64,000 nucleotides of DNA from NCBI GenBank assembly GCA_009761415.1, contig QUOL01000010.1, positions 806,001 through 870,000 of the forward strand, read 5' to 3'. The position numbers and the translations under genes are program-made. Source of the stretch: Sarcomyxa edulis. Lineage: Eukaryota > Basidiomycota > Agaricomycetes > Agaricales > Mycenaceae. Under the pieces are notes generated by a model. It saw nothing but the letters and a program-made list of their open reading frames with translations. It was not told the DNA's origin and ran no database searches. Of the stretch, positions 9,001 through 52,824 are shown in pieces; the first letter of the stretch is position 1, and each line of letters opens with the position of its first letter.

Positions 9001-12000
9001 GCTAACAACAAGGTCCGTGTACCTGAGTCTATGGACATGTCACAGTCACGTGTTACCCATGTTATCACAACGAGCTCTTAAGCCTAGCTGGTCAAGCATG
9101 GGTGGATGGAAGCCGCTCTATATTGTACGCGCATACCGAAGAGATCGGGCTCTATCCCTTCTGGATCTTGTCTTTTTGGAACGAGATAATCAAACTCACC
9201 CCCGCTATGGCAGCTTGGTCTGCTGCGGATTTGTGGTTATCACAAAAGTCGAAAGATCCAAAGTCCGAAGTTTGTCGTCACACTGCGGACGATTTTCGCA
9301 CCGCCTTGTTCAGCCTCTGCTGGGGTGGCGTAATTCACGGATTTACAGACTCGATTCCTGTCTGTTTTCTATCGACTTATCTGTCACGAGAATGGCTCAC
9401 AGACGAACACATCAGCCTGATGCTCGACATCCTTCAGCATCGAATCTCAGCAGACCCAGAGCTTGCTCTCCGCCACTCCATATGTAATGTTTTCACTTCT
9501 AGTGTTATACGACGCGTCCACGGGGCTGAACGGCATGAGAACTACGGCTCCGAAAGTCGTCATCGTGATCTATGGAGGATTGGGGAAGATTTGGCGGCTG
9601 CGAAACGCGATACTGCAGCCATGATGGTTCATATCAACACGAATCATTGGACTGTTGTTGTTGTTGATGCAGTGAACCACCGCGTTGAATACGGTAATCC
9701 AGTGAAGAAGGCCATCTCGCTGACGCCGCCCCCTCCGCCGTCTTGGTTGGTTGATGCTGTGACATGGTGGTTATCGCAGCACTTCCCAGATACATCCTTC
9801 GTATGGGGTGACCTTCCGTGTGATCCTCAAGAGGACCAATTTTCTTGTGGGATACGCGGAGGTCACATCTTGGGGCAGTATTACTTCAAAGATTCGGATA
9901 TGGACCCCCATGTCGATGTTGCTCGGATGAAACTGGGCATGGAGATCATTCGTCGCCATCAGCAAGCTGTAAGTTTCTCTCTATTCTGATCTGTATGATA
10001 CCGGAATTGACACGGTTGTTGCAGCGTCAGTTGTTTTTGGCTGCTGCTGCCGCGAATGCCATCGTTGTTGCAGCTACATTACCTACACCCTCCGATTTTC
10101 TCCTTAGAGATCCATCAGCCATGGAATCTCGCCCATCTACACCTCCGAATCAGTCCTCGAGTGATCTTACGACGTCGTTCTCTGCTATGAAAGTTACGCC
10201 AAAGCGTCATCGTTCCATTTCTTCGAGTCCATCAGCCGACTCCCCTCTTTCTGTTACTGAGGGTCTTTTTACTCGAGTAGACTCAAAGCGACGCATTGAA
10301 GTCACCTCCCCATCTGGATCACCCAAGAAAAAGAAGAACCGCAAGGACACCTACCCAAAAATCGAACCGTTCGGCATCTTCACTTCGACTGCTGCCGCCG
10401 CGACCGCCCAAAAAGTCAAAGGGAACGTGAATGTCGGAGGTTCTGCGGTGGAACCTTCTGGTTCCAAATCTAGTGCTCCACACGGAACAAAGGTCAAAGA
10501 GAAAAAGGCCAGGCGAAAAGCAAAACAGAAAGCAAAACATGTATGTGCCCATTCAATGTCGATTTCGATAGGTTGCTGACATCATAATGTACAGAGCGAT
10601 TCCGAGGAAGAGGACACAGGCCTACATGACCTGTCGGATGACGAGCAAATTGTGAGTCTGACCGGTCGACCGCGCACAGAGCTTCTCGATAGAATCACCA
10701 TCCCTTGCCATGTCCGGAGCAATCCTATCAAGAAAAGGTATCGTTGTGCTGGTACAACGTGTCTCAAGTCCTGGGCAGCTCCGTTAAGTCTTGCTCGTGT
10801 TCTGAAGCATTCCGGCCATTGTTCCCTTCTACCACCCCTTGATCGCGCTGATGCTAACGCGTTGATGGGTGATGGAAGTGTTGGCGAGCGGATTGCAAGA
10901 CTTGAAGCCATCCTTGCAGAGGCTCCTAGTACGACACAGATGCGGGTAGACTCAGATCTACCAGAGGTTCAGCCAGTCAAAAATACGGCTACGTCAAGCT
11001 CTTTCAAATTCGACGTCAACACATATCGCGCGCCTGGTCTCAAACTACTTCAAGCAAGAATGGATCAGGCGGTAGTCCGTCTCTTCTCAGTTGCAGGACT
11101 CGCACCAAGTATAGTCGACTCCAAGGAATGGAAGAATCTTCTGGGGGTCGCTAATTCTTCCATTCGTCCAATGTCGAGTTCGACTCTTGCAGATAGCCAT
11201 ATTCCCGGCGAAGCGGCGCGTATTCGAATCCTTTCCATTGAGTATCTCAAGACCGTGTTTGACCTTACAATAACCTTCGATGGTGGAACGACTCAATCCC
11301 AGCAGTCGGTCTATACCATCCATTTCACCACTCCCGATGGCCGTAGTTTTCTTATCGAAGGAAATGAAGCTTCGGCCATCAGCCACACCGGCGAACATAT
11401 TGCGGGTCTCATCCTTAGGGCGATGGATATGATTGGTAGGACCCATTTTTCTGCAATCGCATCCGACAACACCGGCAACACGAGAGTCTGCCGCCGACAT
11501 GTCTGTAACGTGGTGGCGACACTGATCAACATGCTCGACTGTGTCCATCACATGAGCTTAGTGTGCAAAGACCTATCCAAGCTGCCAATCTTCGCCGATG
11601 TAAGTCCCAAATCAGAGTTCTCTCTACTTGTCTAGCCTATATTCACATGTCTACAGATGATAAAGCAGTTGCGGGCTACAATTACATTCTTCAGCAGTTC
11701 TACCTTCGCCAAAACACACCTTAACGAGGAACGTAAAAACATGGGTATCGGTCGTGGCCTCGAGAAGATTGGCAAGACCCGATTCGCTACGTTAGCCATC
11801 TCCGCAATCGCATTACAACGAAACCTCGTACCCATTCGGAAGCTTGTCACATCCGAGACTATCGAAATTCCCGTACGTTTCCAATCTGCTACTAGAATTT
11901 AGTTCGTCCGTGATGACCCTTTCCTTCTTCAGAAAAAGACGGACACTCTTCGTGATGTGAACCATCTTTTCATCTACGGAAGTCATACCGGGATGCAGTT

Positions 12001-21397: not shown

Positions 21398-21419
21398 CCT
21401 CAAACCAAGGGGGTACCGG
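21398..21419 (+). repeat. Left target duplication and terminal inverted repeat of P-type transposon
   Basis: Bases 21398-21405 are CCTCAAAC, and 21406-21419 are CAAGGGGGTACCGG. The same octamer occurs directly after the right end (27565-27572), and the 14-bp sequence is present in inverse orientation at 27551-27564. With one mismatch the inverted match extends to 17 bases. Confidence 0.93.
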
Positions 21420-24400
21420 CAACATAATATTTTACCTGGGGTCGATTTATTTTTTGCAGCCTTGCGAGAGCAACTGACTGACTGACGTAATCAAGGGTCT
21501 TCCATATATGGTAATAGTTACCATATGCGGAAGCGGGATCATACCAGAGGGTGCACCAATTCTCGAATCAGTATCGTCGTTGTACTGTAGGTTGATCGAC
21601 AATGCTACATGAGCTTTCTAGACTATCGACGGGCTCGTTTTCCACCTCGCGAAGGCTCTGAGTATGACCTGCAAGCTGTGCAGATCCAACCATCAGTGAC
21701 TTCATCACTGTTCGTAAGGCATGCTAGATGATACTTGAACATTGCGCCGTCAACATCAATCGGTCGATAGAGAGAACGATGACATACCAATTCCGTCTCA
21801 CATCCAGCACGAGCGCATTGTACAATATCATCTGGTGACCGGACATATTCTTCATCTCGGATGACCAACCCACACAGGCATTGGTGGAGATCACCGATAT
21901 CGATACACTTTCGTTTGCGACGTGGACGGCTGAGCGTTTCTTGGTCATGTTCAGCATGGCTCAGCAGCGGCGGACTCTCGATATCGCGGCGAGTCTCCTG
22001 CGGGGTCACGGGGATATGAATCGAGGGGTCAATCTTCGAGAGGCAATTTGATCAGTCACGGTAAAATGAGATGCGAGAGATATCGAGTAAGTACCTGAGA
22101 GTTCAACGTTGGTGAGGCATCGGCTGCTGCCAACTTGGAAGGTCCGGGAGAGGCACTAGGTGAAAGTGTCCTGATTTGTGTAGTGTTCTCGAGCGAGACT
22201 TGTTCGAGAGTACCAGTATGGCTGGCGAAGCGCAAAAGCGAAGTCGTGAGTGGCGGCGTGCTAGAACTGTCTTCAGAGGTGGGTAGCTGCCAGTCGGTTC
22301 GTTCAAGCTCTTTGTCGTTGTTGCAAACTTGAGGAAGAGATTGACCATGATCCTCGCCCAATCCGATGCCTTCACTCTCATCCTTACTCCTGTTTTCGTC
22401 GTCGTCTTCATCACTGCCTTCATCGTCATCTCCATCGCCTTCATCACTGCCTTCTTCGCCATCTCCATCGCCATCATCACTGTCCCCATCGCCGTCGTCG
22501 TTGTCGTTCTCAAGCTCGTCGTCATTGTTAGCAGAACCGGGACTGGGATCATGAGGCAGGTTAGTCGGAATACACAAAACCCAAGCTGCAGTAAGACATA
22601 CCAGGATGCTAACCGAGAGCTATGCGCTTCAGAAATCAGAAGGGCAGGCAGGTTCTTTTGTTTTCGCTTTTTTGTAGTCTTACCACGATCGTTCCAGATC
22701 TTCAACATCTCGGAGATTTCGAATTCGGATAGGGTCCATAGCTGTTGGTACTTTGGGAGAGGTGCGTGAGGATGTGTTTTCATGAAGTGATACTTCAGGT
22801 TGTAGCGCCAGACAGCGGGAGCATCTTTCGGACACAGAGGGCAAGGAAGTGGGACATTGGAGCACGGCGACGTTCGTGTCGATTTGGAGGCTTTAGCGTA
22901 CGAGAAATTGACTAAATTGGGACACCCTGATGAAGCTGCGCGGTTGACCTGAAGACCAGACCCAGAACCTTTACCTTTTCGAAGAAATATCCTGCAGATT
23001 GGAGCTGGGCTAAGACATAGACCGCATGGCTCGGAGGACCGATCCACGTTAGGATCGTTGAGAGTATGACCTCCCACATGGGAGATCGCGTGTTGTCCAT
23101 TACTATCAAGAGTCCTACCGCAGCTTGGACATATGTGAGTACCTTCCCCGTCTTGCGCGCGTGTATTCTCAGATGTCTCGGATACAAAGCATGCTTTCCC
23201 TGAACGTATGTCAGCAAATATAAACTGTTACTGTTGACTGTACATACCGGAAGCTTCACGATAAGGAAAATAAACCGTCTGTTTGACCGTTGGTATGTTC
23301 TTGAAGTCGCGAAGGAAAATTCGGTCAACAAGACTTGACGCAAGAGCCATAATGACGCTACTCTCGAAGAGATAGAACGGCTTGTGAGGTACAGCGGTAG
23401 AGATCGCTGGATTCACGGGCTGGACCATACGCCCCGATACTGTAGAGCCAATACCATCAAGCATACCACGAGATCGCCAATCGTGTTTGAGGCTGGGGTC
23501 ATCCAGAGTATTGGCGGGAACAAGGCACAAGACTTGATATGAAACCTTGACGGTATCTTCCCAAAGCATGTCGAGCCCAATACACTCTACGGGGACTGTG
23601 TCGATGGTGATGTTGTTCACTTCAGCAAGAGCGAGAAAGAACTGTTTATTACAAGAAACGAGAGTTGCGATTGGCTCGGATAAGAATATGCATGGCGCAC
23701 CGAACGCTGAACTGTTCTCGAGGATTGTATCTGATTCTTGAAAGCTGGAAGATGTATAGCGCTGTTGTTGTTCAACGCGGCGGAGACGATCCGTGGAGCT
23801 GGGCGATGTTTTGTATTTTGATCGAAGGGCTAAAGCTCGAGTTTTGTTAATTTTTTTACCACTGATTTCGATGTGATGGCTGAAAGAATGGACAGAATCG
23901 TCCCGAGTGTAGCCTCCAGTAGCATCTTCAAGTTCTAGAGAACATGGATTTGAGTCGGATGGAGGTACCGCGTCGTGCATCGGGGTACTGTCGGGACCGG
24001 TCTCCGTGTCGTCAGGATCAAGCGTGATGTGGACCAAAAGAACCCCAAAGGGTGAGAGGATATCCGCTCCAGGATGTGCCTCGAGTTGGTGAAGGATGTC
24101 GAATGCAAAGGTGCAGTCTGGGTCTGTTTCGACTAGATACCGTCCTTGTTTCCAAGCCGTGATAAGGACAGCATCGCGAAGTTTCACATTCCCGCGCCAA
24201 GATGCAGGCTTAATGTGATCCGATTTGGCTGAGATTTCGGAGGCGTCTCGTGTCATGGGAGGAAGTCTGAGGCGACGAGGACCACGATCCCACTCGGGGT
24301 GCTTTGCAAGAATATTCGACACTTCTGTAGTTCCGGTGAGACGATGCGAAAGCTGAAGAGAATCTAAATTTGAGTCATTTCCCACCATAGTGCGAAGAAT

Positions 24401-27400
24401 GCCGAATAGTTCTTCGAGACGGTCTGTTCCAAGAAGAATAATCCAAAATGAGCCGTCTGGATCATCAATTTTCCCTTTCGCAACACAGAAAAAGACATTC
24501 TTGATCATTATCATGATGTCGATGTACAGAAGGGTGGGTATGAATGATTTGCGTCCTTCACTATAGAGAGCGAGAGAAAGATGGGCTGCGGCGCTGAGAT
24601 GAGCAAGTTGTTCGGAGAGTGAAAGGTCGATGCACAGGTAGGGAAACACGATATGGTGGAGGAGCTTGCCCATAACTCGAAGCGCTTTCCGTGCTGCTGA
24701 AAATCCGGGTTTGGCGTCTGCTGCAGCAGGTGGCAATGACCAGATATCCCGCAATATATCGAAGGCTAGTTTGACGTCCTGTTTGTCGGCGGGGTTAAAA
24801 ATAGCATTGAGATGTTCTGCGGAATGGCCAGCATCTCGAAGGTGTGAACGGATTATTGCAGGAGTGATAATGAATCCCATAATGTTGATACCACTGACAC
24901 GGAGCAATAGGTTACGAAGGCGCTTTATAACGTGCTTGAAATCCTTGTCGGGTGTCAGGTCATCGTCTCCGACCCATAGATTCATGAACCGGAGAGCACT
25001 CAGGAGGGAATGAATGGGAGACTCCGGCTTCAGTTCATGCTTGAACGTCAGAATAACAAAAGATGCACCGCGTTTTGATTCGCCGTCTGAAGCGATAGAG
25101 ATTATCCTGAGGTTTGTGCTGGTTTTTTTGCTATCAACAGCACTGATGGTCGTTCTAATGAGCTTAGCATGTTCCCTGCCATTCCCGCGTTTGCAGGTTC
25201 CAGAAATGAGAATAGGCCGAGCGCTGTATATTCGAGTGTCTTGACTAAGTAGCCCGAGAGCGCCAACCGTTGCCTGAGAGGGATTTGAGATAATACACGT
25301 GGGAAACAACGATAGAAGACTTACCTCACTAGAGTAGTGGACTTCGTCCTTTTCTAAGCTACGGAAGACCTCTTCCAAGTCGTCCTCACCCTGGAACTCG
25401 AGACTCGTCGCATTTCCGTGCTCCCTACAAACACCCAAGAAATTATTGGTCTTGTCATCCCATCTGAGGCGCTTCTCTGTAGCGATCTCATCAAACATGA
25501 GAACCTGATGAACAACCTTTGCGGTGCTCAGAACCTCTTTCAAACTATCAAAACACGAGTCGACGTTGGTCTGGATTTCACTGGAGGTTGGAGTAGTATG
25601 CGAGGGTATGAGATGAGGAACTCTCGATCGATTTCGGAGGGTGGTCATTCCAGGAAGGCCTAATGCACGGTGCCCAATCTCGGCGAGTCGATTCCCTCCT
25701 AATCTCCATAGCAGTATGCCCCGTAGTTCATCTTCTTCAGTATATCCTTTTGGACTGTAAAACCCTCGCACTGCCGCATCATGGAGTTCCAGGATGGTCA
25801 AAATCCCCTTATGTTGAGCCAAATTTGCACGGAGAAGGCGATGCACACTCGCAAATTTTCCGCTAGCAAGTGCAACCAAGAGCCTCTTGTGATCCTCTAG
25901 TGCAGTCGCCTTTCCGAGAAGTGTTCTCCCAGTATTCAAGTCATGTAATCGCACGACGTCTTTTTGGCGTGTCTTCCGCCGCGCTATCACCACCATTCCT
26001 CCGTGGGCCTGGTAAGCAAATTTCGCATTCTCTTGAACACCATTGTGAATCCGATGAATTATACCCTGCAGGGATTTGTTGAGGTTGAGCATCAGACATG
26101 GGCCGCAATTTCTGGACTTTCTTGTCGGTTTCCCTGTACAGGTGCGAGCACGTAGAGTGAGCACCCCATTACTGACCGTATAGTCCCAGGGTAAAGCTAG
26201 TTCATCGTGCAACGCAAATGGGTAGGACGAGTGTGGAGTTTTACCAGGGGGGAATGTCATTGTGAAGCCTGCGCACGACGGTGTTCTTAATGCAGGCAGT
26301 TGGAGCGGCAGTAAAATCTCGATGTCAGGTACCGCGTCAACGTCGATTGGCATGTCTTCTACGAGTAGGCTAACTTGATTTACTTCTAGAATATCGGCCC
26401 CGGTGATGGAGGGAAGGGTCGGAGACAGACTTGCCGGCTGTATTGGTTGAGGTGGATGTGCCGCTGTCTTTGTTATTCTAGAGACACGGTAAGTCTTATT
26501 CTAATGCTTTGACTCGGAAATTCACGAAAGATTCCTCACATAGAATTGATTGCGTCAATCAACACTCGAAGCTTTCCCTCAAGAAGTCCACCCTGCAGAC
26601 CTCGTGTACCCACAAAGTAATTCAAGAACTTCCAAAGTCCCTCTAATCCCTTCTCTCCACGACGGATAAGCTTCTCCGCTTCTTCTGTGGTCTTTCTCCA
26701 TCCAAGCGCGTTCGTCAGCAGAGGATGCAAAGTCTGCTCCCATATTTCATCGGAACCTGCCTCTGCATTGGCGTACGTCTCTGGATCACCCGAAAACACG
26801 GCAAGTTCGTCTCCATCGTGTCCTTCAGGTACCCCATCAGGAAGCTGATCGATAGCCATGCGAAGCTCTTGAAGAAGTCGCGTCGCGACAGGACATGCAC
26901 CAGTGTCATGAACTTCAAGGAGAACTGTAGCTGTGATGGGCTCAGTGCGTGTCTCATCAGATTGACGTGCTACCGGAGTAGACTGTGATGTTGCATGGAC
27001 GAGTGAGGGTGCGGAGACGGTGGTTGGTACAAGTCGGGGAATTTTTTTCATGAAGCTGAAGATCGACATGTTTTTCTTGGGAGTGTTATCTCGTTTGTCT
27101 TTTGCTTTCCTGCATGCTTTGCTGCCCAAGTGGCGCTTCTCGAGATTACTGATGCCTACCGGTCCCAGGTTAACATGCATACCACATTCCGGGCATTTTG
27201 CGTAGCCCGGTGGAACGACTTCGGGATCAGGCTATCATAGATTGAATTTTGTCGACATTAGCATAGCTCAGATATATCTTGATGTCTCCATATGACTGAC
27301 CTCCATTGTGAAGACAGCTCCTCCGAGAAGGCAGGCTTCTTTAATACTGTAAAGAAAATTGACGTTCGAGTTTGCCCTCGAGCTTCGCTCAATTAGTTGT

Positions 27401-27564
27401 TATTCCACATATTTGGTCTAAATGTATCTTCTTTCGGTCACAAGAGTCTATTCTGAGCTCAAAACAAGACAAAAATATGAGGGGTCAAAGTTTTTTTTTC
27501 AGACTTGACGGCCGGACTAACTAACCAAGCCCTGGTGTCGGGTTCGATTCCCGGTACCCCCTTG
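21406..27564 (-). mobile_element. Complete P-superfamily DNA transposon, 6159 bp
   Basis: The element is bounded by 14-bp terminal inverted repeats (CAAGGGGGTACCGG) and an exact 8-bp target duplication (CCTCAAAC). Eight bases is the duplication length of the P and hAT superfamilies. The single internal gene is a P-element/THAP9-type transposase on the minus strand, starting 258 bases inside the right end and stopping 217 bases inside the left end, so the element is compact and appears complete. Ends, duplication and coding frame all look undamaged, which suggests a recent insertion. The restored empty site would read gatcaatttgccCTCAAACt across the junction. Confidence 0.93.
21623..27306 (-). 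CDS. P-element-like transposase with zinc fingers and PHD finger
   Basis: Eight exons (27306-27301, 27231-26540, 26477-25325, 25273-23248, 23199-22602, 22542-22095, 22033-21788, 21733-21623) sum to 5280 nt, in phase, giving 1759 residues. The N-terminus has a C2HC finger (CPECGMHV...H...C). The core matches P/THAP9 transposases: VLMFDEIATEKRLRWDD (first Asp), IASDGESKRG (second Asp), DFKHVIKRLRNLLLR (the HLLKxIRN-like helix), a segment like the P-element FNPADKQDVKLA stretch, and LGTDRLEELFGILRTMVGN (the DxxExxFGxxR motif with the last acidic residue). Downstream are a CPSC...H...H finger, a Cys-rich block, CPLC...H...H, and an Asp/Glu-rich tract. Last comes a PHD finger: CLCG, CARAGCETELYHLAC, WICTAC. 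The first exon encodes only Met-Glu; this start gives the in-phase splice GAG|gtcagt. Two introns (51 and 54 nt) are multiples of three without stops. Function is inferred from motifs and element structure. Confidence 0.9.
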
Positions 27565-27572
27565 CCTCAAAC
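27551..27572 (-). repeat. Right terminal inverted repeat and target duplication of P-type transposon
   Basis: The inverse copy of the left end occupies 27551-27564, followed by CCTCAAAC at 27565-27572, identical to the left duplication. Just inside, the plus strand reads GGTTCGATTCC (27541-27551), a perfect RNA polymerase III B-box and tRNA T-arm-like sequence that overlaps the inverted repeat. Confidence 0.93.
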
Positions 27573-50446: not shown

Positions 50447-52824
50447 ATGGGCTGGCTTTCTTCCCTTTTCTCTTCAGATAATAATCCACCTCAAAATATA
50501 CGGAAAGGTCAAGCCATGTCCTCGACACACGAGGCTTTCTCCCTCCCAACCTCGTCTCCAATTCTCTCTTCCCATTCAGACGTATTCCATCCAGACGGTC
50601 TGAATACACCAGATCCTGACTCTGCTGTCAGTCCATCATATACATACCCACCCGCAGGAGGCTCTTATGGCTATGTTGCAGCATCGTAAGTACAATCCAT
50701 CCACTTTTCTATCCATTTCACATTTAATCCTCGTTTAACATCGATACAGCGCCCAATCTCACTCCCGACCACCGTCTTTACTTCCAACCCACCATGATCC
50801 TCTTCATACTCCCCTGACTCCCCCATCAGGTTACCCACCTCTCGCAAGGACATGGTCACGACTACAAACATGGCTCACTCGGGAATACCCCGAACTGGGA
50901 GATACCCTCAACTACGGAATCCTACCCCAAGACCTAGCCCAGATAGAAATGCAATTCGGCTTCGCTCTCCCAGCCGTCGTACGCGAATCCTACCTCGTCG
51001 TCGACGGTCAAGAAGCAGAGTCTGCAGCTGGATGTTCCGAAGGTCTTTTTTTCGGACTCACCCTCCTACCCCTCGAGGACGTCCTAGAAGAATGGAGGTT
51101 CTGGCGAGAAGTCGACGATGATCCAGTAACAGGTGCTAACCCTCGTCTACGAGACCTCATGCAATCTATACCACCCGGTTGGGTTAGAAAAGAATATTCA
51201 CAACGAGGTTGGTTACCTCTTATTACTGATAAAACCGGTAATTATATCGGTATCGATCTCAATCCCGCGGAAAGTGGTTCGGTGGGGCAGGTCATTGTGT
51301 TTGGACGCGACTTCGATACGAAAGTCGTCCTGTGGAACGGAGATGGTGTGGCGGGTTGGGCGAAGTGGTTGGCTAGTTTCGTAGAAGAATTAGAGGGAGG
51401 TGAAGGGTTTGAGATTGGTGCTAGTAATGAGGCGAGTGAAGGGAGTGAGGATGATGTCGGTTATGAGAGTTACTTCTATGATGGAAGTGGTCGGGGTCAA
51501 GGAGACGGTGGGGGTGACTCGGGATCGGGAGGTGGGCTTCGTTTGACGGGTGAGTATAGAGGGTGGAGCCCGTTAGAGGCATGGGCAGACCGGAGTGTTA
51601 GACGATGGTACGAAGCAGGCGTCATTCAAGATGACCCCATGCTGCAGGAAGAAGAGGAGGATCTGAAAGGAAAGGTATAGCTACCTCACTTCTCTCCATC
51701 GAATCCTCACCCATCCGTTGATATCAATATCTCAATAGGGACCAGAAAAAGCTGTCGGCCTCGGTGTCCTACACATGCCCGACGCAGCTCAAGTACACAT
51801 CCCCGTACTCGCAGATATCAGTGAACCCACCAACACCAACACCCATAATCGTACTCACACTCATAATCACACAACATCCCGTCCACGACCAACAGACCTC
51901 CCAACCATCTCCATCACCAAACCCCCCGCACCATTACCCGTAGACGTCCCAACCCCCCACGACATCGATGTCGAGTCTCCATCAGATCCAATGGCGGATA
52001 CTGTTCATTCTCCGTTCACTGATGATTTAGAATCGGGGTTGGAGTCGCGTATGAGGGAGGTGGCTATTACACGTACCACCACGCGCGAGGTATCAGCGGG
52101 AGGCGGACTACCGACGAAACCACCACAATCTCATATCCATGAGATTGTCGTTCCGACTGCTACTGTGTCTGTGTCGACGCCTATCATTATTGTCGATCAA
52201 CAACAACAACAGCAGGAGCCACCGACAAGTCCTCCAGACCTCCTTGCGGATTCTGCACCTTTAGAGATGGTGACGACGCCTATTGAACCATCATCTCCTG
52301 CCCGACCTGAAGTACCACTGTCGACTTCTACAGCAACAACACCAATAGCAGCTGTTGCTCCCGCTCCCATCACAGTCCCTGCTCCCGCCTCTGTTCCTAT
52401 CCCTGCTCCCATTCCTTCCGTCACTGCACCCACCACGTCCCTCCTAGATAACGCGGTCTTATCAGAAGAGCCCGAGCACGAAGACCATGACAACGCAGAT
52501 GATGCAGAACCCCAAGAACAAGATCCAGACACGACCATCCGCCTCATAGGCGGTGGAGGGACCGCTGGTATCGTCTCCGAAGACTCCAACCCTCCTCATC
52601 CTGGCGCTGATGACGGGGAATTAACGGACACAGGATCCATAACATCCGCAACATCCGTCACATCCGCTGGCGGTACCAAAACCAAAACCAGGGGGACACA
52701 TAAGAAGACGAAGAGTGGGTTGGCTGGGTTGAAGAAGTTGGGACATTTGGGTGGGTTGAGGAAGAAGGATTCGGTTAGTAGTACTGGTGGTGATGGTGCC
52801 AAGGACGCGTCGGATTCAAAGTGA
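50447..52824 (+). CDS. KNR4: Knr4/Smi1-like cell wall assembly regulator
   Basis: Three exons encode a protein starting MGWLSSLFSSDN. After a Ser/Pro-rich region comes the SMI1/KNR4 domain: WSRLQTWLTREYPELGDTLN, IEMQFGFALPAVVRESYLVV, GLFFGLTLLPLEDVLEEWRF, WLPLITDKTGNYIGIDLNP, GQVIVFGRDFDTKVVL and WAKWLASFVEEL. Knr4/Smi1 in yeast links the Slt2 cell-integrity pathway to beta-1,3-glucan and chitin synthesis. The C-terminal 350 residues are low-complexity (Thr/Pro/Ala-rich, a short polyQ, then Lys/Gly-rich), as in fungal orthologues. The first intron splits the codon of SAQS (50689 to about 50751); the second follows KGK (51675 to about 51739). The stop is TGA at 52822-52824. Confidence 0.92.

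Follow-up and report, generated by a model that had tools for sequence, protein, structure and literature searches.

The Drosophila P transposase (PDB 6p5a/6pe2) is a 751-aa protein whose RNase H core carries a DDE triad, a D(2)H signature and a helical insertion between the second D and the E, which are spaced 228 residues apart; its element has 31-bp ends and makes 8-bp target site duplications (TSDs). The available parts of PMC7776569 and PMC10983969 describe the zebrafish Pdre2 and the THAP9 elements with 13-bp terminal inverted repeats (TIRs), subterminal repeats, 8-bp TSDs and internally deleted relatives. For fungi, the available part of PMC3164196 reported P-superfamily elements in 2011 from the rusts Puccinia and Melampsora as "previously unknown in any Dikarya"; the elements were deposited in Repbase, and those of Melampsora have 8-bp duplications. 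Here we describe a 6159-bp element with a transposase gene in the window, the whole 64,000-nucleotide stretch analyzed, of the mushroom Sarcomyxa edulis (contig QUOL01000010.1, positions 806,001 to 870,000). We conclude that it is a complete P-superfamily DNA transposon that has transposed recently and is apparently autonomous, with a probability of roughly 93% for the P-superfamily transposon claim. The initial annotation had called a fully bounded and apparently intact fungal P element notable; the intact, bounded copy was confirmed, but fungal occurrence alone is not new, because rust elements had been reported (PMC3164196, available part).

The mushroom element shares with Drosophila P the RNase H core, the DDE triad, the D(2)H signature, the 8-bp TSD and the helical insertion (D-E spacing of 224 residues). 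However, the proteins are only about 17% identical, the mushroom protein is much longer (1759 aa) and has a longer stretch between the first and second D, the mushroom ends are 14 bp, and neither a THAP domain nor conserved GTP-pocket residues were detected. Structural similarity to Transib/RAG1, which makes 5-bp target duplications, was clearly lower than to P transposase. TIRs, subterminal repeats, 8-bp TSDs and deleted relatives are common to the mushroom element and Pdre2, but the subterminal repeats are inverted in Pdre2 and direct here, and again no THAP domain was detected in the mushroom protein. The rust elements P-1_PSt, P-1_MLP and P-2_MLP (Repbase; PMC3164196, available part), compared here by their published description, also belong to the P superfamily in Basidiomycota, have 8-bp TSDs and occur in autonomous and nonautonomous forms.

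Bounds, copies and transposase of the element

The element occupies positions 21406-27564 (G000:C2:827406-833564). It is flanked by exact copies of the 8-bp duplication CCTCAAAC at 21398..21405 and 27565..27572, and its left TIR, CAAGGGGGTACCGG (21406..21419, plus strand), is complementary at 14/14 positions to the right TIR (27551..27564, minus strand). The TIRs are perfect for 14 bp and 94% complementary over 17 nt. The duplication and the 14-bp ends had both been proposed from the letters of the sequence, and both were confirmed. By a naive count, with equal and independent bases and anywhere in the window, a 14-bp perfect inverted repeat with an adjoining 8-bp direct repeat is expected about 1e-4 times per window by chance.

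The host assembly (35.6 Mb, 40 contigs) was searched for relatives. At least one further full copy is present, at C23:1054778-1060936 in opposite orientation. It also measures 6159 bp and differs from the window copy by 10 substitutions and 0 indels (0.16%). It lies in flanks unrelated to those of the window copy, within its own 8-bp duplication, ACACAAAG (element orientation), and its product, also 1759 aa long, differs at three residues (R352S, N588K and G647E). Thus, one check proposed in the initial annotation, for another copy that shares the ends but not the duplication, was positive, and the two intact, near-identical copies with distinct duplications support its view of a complete, recently inserted element with an intact gene.

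Two 511-bp elements, C1:161415-161925 and C36:1295471-1295981, have the ends CAAGGGGGTACCGG / CAAGGGGGTGCCGG, are 91% alike and are bounded by the exact 8-bp duplications CCCTACAC and ACTGACAG; when one of the two was used to search the genome, 11 matches were obtained, nine of them partial. Furthermore, a relative on C25 (L034 2924-8888) with 30-33% amino-acid identity belongs to a second subfamily of the P superfamily in this genome. It has perfect inverted ends of 42 bp, which start with CAAG, and is bounded by the 8-bp duplication CGGAGGAC. An 8-bp duplication was therefore present in 5/5 bounded copies (two full, two 511-bp and the C25 element). Position 7 of the duplication is A in all five and position 5 in 4/5, too few copies to judge; the Drosophila P target consensus, GGCCAGAC, likewise has A at these positions.

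The catalytic residues were mapped with profiles of animal proteins (78/84 proteins from a Drosophila P search, length 450-1100 aa) and mushroom proteins (n=58; the window protein and 57 of 120 listed homologs). All lie on the minus strand. The first catalytic Asp, D337 of the open reading frame (ORF) (25490..25492), corresponds to Drosophila D230 and is Asp in 56/58 family members by two alignment methods. The second, D472 (25085..25087; Drosophila D303), and the catalytic Glu, E696 (24413..24415; Drosophila E531), are each conserved in 58/58, as are both residues of D520-H523 (24932..24943; Drosophila D339-H342). The latter form the [C/D](2)H motif that follows the second D, the P-superfamily signature according to the available part of PMC8230255. 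In the second subfamily (24/69 proteins of the C25 search; 25 by length 900-1500 aa, one lost for gaps), the equivalents of D230, D303 and E531 are present in 22, 21 and 23 of 24 proteins and the D(2)H residues in 21/24 each, with 3 gaps. Profile search and structure comparison, two checks named in the initial annotation, both matched P transposase, whose fold was the closest to the catalytic core among those compared.

The sequence model places the gene on the minus strand, with the ATG at 27306, the stop codon ending at 21623, and seven GT-AG introns of 48-69 nt; this unbroken eight-exon reading of 1759 residues agrees to the residue with the one first proposed. Exon 1 (27301..27306) holds the start codon (Met-Glu) and exon 2 (26540..27231) an N-terminal C2HC-type finger, CPEC..H..C. 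Exon 3 (25325..26477) encodes the helical N-terminal part and the first part of the RNase H core with the first catalytic Asp, and exon 4 (23248..25273) encodes the second half of the core, the helical insertion domain and a C-terminal beta domain. A Cys/His-rich segment (exon 5, 22602..23199) and an acidic, low-complexity linker (exon 6, 22095..22542) follow. Exon 7 (21788..22033) contributes a basic tract and the first half of a PHD-like finger, which ends, with the stop codon, in exon 8 (21623..21733). Homolog sequences support intron 7, because its removal restores the PHD-type finger spacing and improves the match to PHD PF00628 (E 0.0042 versus 0.27 with the intron, both below the Pfam cut-off). 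In the 42 listed homologs with a length of 1500 aa or more, the CPEC...H...C finger was found in 31/42 by regular expression and the C-terminal PHD-type pattern, in a strict form, in 13/42. The motifs FDE, SDGE, FKHVIKRLRN and DRLEELFGILR, pointed out at first, are all present; FDE, SDG and DRLE recur in 85/120, 112/120 and 105/120 listed homologs, but the literal KH[VL]IKR is rare (10/120).

Internal to the TIRs, an approximately 50-bp module (GGGGTC, A/T tract, CAG, AC-rich tail) is repeated in the same orientation at both ends (21438..21495 and 27481..27529, plus strand), with a local alignment score of 37 versus at most 31 in 300 shuffles. The 511-bp elements also have such a direct pair (scores 47 and 40 versus 32 each in shuffles), and a comparable pair accompanies the inverted ends of the C25 element (39 versus 28). 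Because P elements have internal sites (PMC7776569, available part), we infer that these modules are candidate internal transposase sites. In addition, a subterminal palindrome with 16-nt arms, 3-nt spacer and 88% complementarity lies at 21499..21533, and part of it recurs in diverged form at C2:1270062-1270112. At the right terminus (27536-27564), the sequence is similar to the T-arm of a tRNA, including its B-box (GGGTTCGATTCCCGG), and an acceptor-like TACCCCC comes next; tRNA prediction gave none at this terminus, and relatives retain just a short hairpin.

Taken as a mechanism, the transposase would be transcribed leftward from the right end of the element and would bind the subterminal direct repeats as well as the 14-bp ends. 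The element would then be excised by two-metal DDE chemistry and joined to the target with an 8-bp stagger. Held less firmly, the mushroom clade might position its ends without the animal GTP pocket, and the C-terminal beta domain and PHD-type finger might touch chromatin.

The insertion domain and the GTP pocket

The residues listed as GTP-binding in P transposase (PMC7776569, available part) were compared in an E-INS-i alignment of the 78 animal and 58 mushroom rows. S409 is Ser in 77/78 animal rows versus 29 Lys, 15 Arg, 6 Gln and 4 His in the mushroom rows. Similarly, D444 (Asp in 73/78) is replaced by 28 Tyr, 9 His, 9 Arg and 7 Phe, and N447 (Asn in 76/78) by 30 Val, 12 Ile, 11 Leu and 3 Thr. 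K400 (33 Lys, 25 Arg and 15 Asn in animals) corresponds to Asp in 53/58 mushroom rows, and K385 (65 Lys and 7 Arg in animals) to a gap in 58/58. F443 is partly retained (26 Phe, 25 Leu), whereas almost all rows keep V401 (57/58) and D528 (56/58). In the 24 rows of the second subfamily, Ser is not among the four commonest residues at S409, N447 is Leu or Met, and 4 Asp were found at D444.

These differences suggest that the mushroom branch has probably lost the GTP pocket. No part of the protein is harder to align than the insertion domain, which may instead bind GTP through residues that were placed in the wrong register, an explanation that we consider possible but less likely than loss. It would fit the conserved D528 and V401 equivalents and the near invariance, at the K400 position itself, of D575 (53/58). 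However, an hhalign mapping, built on the same sequences, agreed with E-INS-i where residues were aligned, concurring for K400, S409, F443 and D444; N447 was unaligned and K385 mostly Gly. Furthermore, the motif F[DN]..N[SAT] was found in 57/78 animal cores versus 0/58 and 1/24 mushroom cores. The GTP-binding insertion domain PF21788 was detected in 4/4 animal but 0/38 mushroom proteins scanned (the window protein and 37 homologs from the mushroom profile set); its absence alone says little, because PF21787 also fails the cut-off.

Mobility and superfamily placement

With two intact copies, it is plausible from their sequences that the element can still move. It could also be bounded like a transposon and now be immobile, either dead or domesticated. 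We regard this as improbable: both copies have 1759 intact codons with an intact DDE triad, perfect ends, distinct duplications and only 0.16% difference. On the other side, mobility is read from sequence, the full copies found number just two, and degenerate relatives are present as well, some of them with common flanking DNA. In the genome, 22 sites matched the 14-bp end with at most one mismatch, versus 10 in a reversed-pattern control. Eight of the 22 are the paired ends of the two full and the two 511-bp elements, and six of the other 14 resemble the termini of old, degenerate copies with a common flank. Five degenerate relatives (L016, L017, L019, L023 and L027, on C3, C5, C16, C34 and C39; position 1501) have the same left flank of 12 bp, apart from a single differing base in L027. 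These were therefore probably copied with surrounding DNA rather than separately transposed.

Several observations weigh against the reading as a recently transposed P-superfamily element. The copy counts in the host genome are lower bounds, and the search for empty sites within the host assembly found just the flanks of filled sites. The curated Pfam model for the superfamily, PF21787, scored 21.4 bits for the window protein versus a cut-off of 24.6 and reached E<=0.01 in just 10/38 mushroom proteins scanned. PDB sequence searches with the single protein or a profile found no P transposase, hhalign against the single Drosophila sequence was weak (P 0.003-0.0065, probability 6-10%), and structural identity to P transposase was only 17%. 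Finally, the THAP domain, present at the N-terminus of "all the known P proteins" according to a passage in PMC1562414, gave no match at E<=10 in exon 2 or at E<=1 in the N-terminus. The control for this search was weak: among 4 animal proteins scanned, PF05485 was detected in Drosophila P only, and it was listed for 22/84 rows of the Drosophila P search, many of them partial. Of the P/THAP9 label first given to the gene, P-superfamily membership was borne out but a typical THAP9-type protein was not, given the undetected THAP domain and the unconserved GTP-pocket residues.

Duplication length by itself cannot distinguish P from hAT or Kyakuja-Dileera-Zisupton (KDZ) elements. A superficially P-like member of one of these superfamilies is nevertheless very unlikely, as the core matched P transposase in profile and structure. 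Foldseek also matched Hermes (hAT; E 1.7e-3), and the available portions of PMC12730594 and PMC9674265 report Kyakuja and Zisupton in Agaricomycetes and active hAT elements in a mushroom, respectively. No KDZ Pfam model was listed for any of the 38 mushroom proteins, the window protein included, a scan without a KDZ positive control. A segmental duplication or misassembly as the origin of the two full copies, which are near-identical in a single assembly, is scarcely credible with different contigs, unrelated flanks and different exact 8-bp duplications abutting both ends.

Neighboring features and spread among fungi

Elsewhere in the window, a Ulp1-type protease ORF (PF02902) adjoins a DUF659 ORF (just below cut-off) at 9027-11635. 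The two are likely part of a separate hAT-like element, although no bounding inverted repeats were recognized around the pair. An ORF of the SMI1/KNR4 family (PF09346) at 50739-51680 is an ordinary host gene.

A protein search with the window transposase yielded 382 proteins (7993 candidates scored), of which 120 were listed; none of these is called transposase in the shortened names shown. Named sources include Lyophyllum, Mycena, Laccaria, Pleurotus, Schizophyllum, Athelia, Auricularia and Gloeopeniophorella, and we take all recognized ones to be Agaricomycetes. The C25 search yielded 69 proteins, the named ones recognized as Agaricomycetes only. In a single midpoint-rooted FastTree run, which covers clade structure and does not address horizontal transfer, the two subfamilies formed separate clades (support 0.92 and 0.99; fungal node 0.72). 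None of the 84 proteins of the Drosophila P search had a fungal name; many are metagenome records without organism name. We found no description of an Agaricomycete P clade in the literature searched, which did not extend to Repbase. By the terms searched, P elements were not mentioned in the available part of PMC12730594, on fungal DNA transposons with TET/JBP genes. In Pleurotus ostreatus, Tc1-mariner alone of the cut-and-paste superfamilies was reported (PMC4905642, available part), and two other Pleurotus species carry family members (P0104, P0112).

Tentatively, mushrooms could harbor a large, old P branch of at least two subfamilies that cuts and pastes without a GTP switch, a feature regarded as a hallmark of P transposase, and in which a chromatin-reader-like C-terminus (Tudor/BAH-like beta domain and PHD finger) replaces THAP. 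That the C-terminal beta domain and PHD-type finger contact chromatin is, taken singly, unlikely. The added value lies in the size of this unrecognized clade, nearly invisible to current models, in its recent intact copies and in the apparently missing GTP pocket. For basidiomycete genetics, the pair of intact, near-identical copies offers a candidate tool. Since the catalytic core is kept and the pocket residues are not, this widespread natural branch allows a direct test of whether P-type chemistry inherently needs GTP. If the mushroom branch is indeed GTP free, comparing it with the P proteins of animals would tell whether gating by GTP is an ancestral trait or arose in animals.
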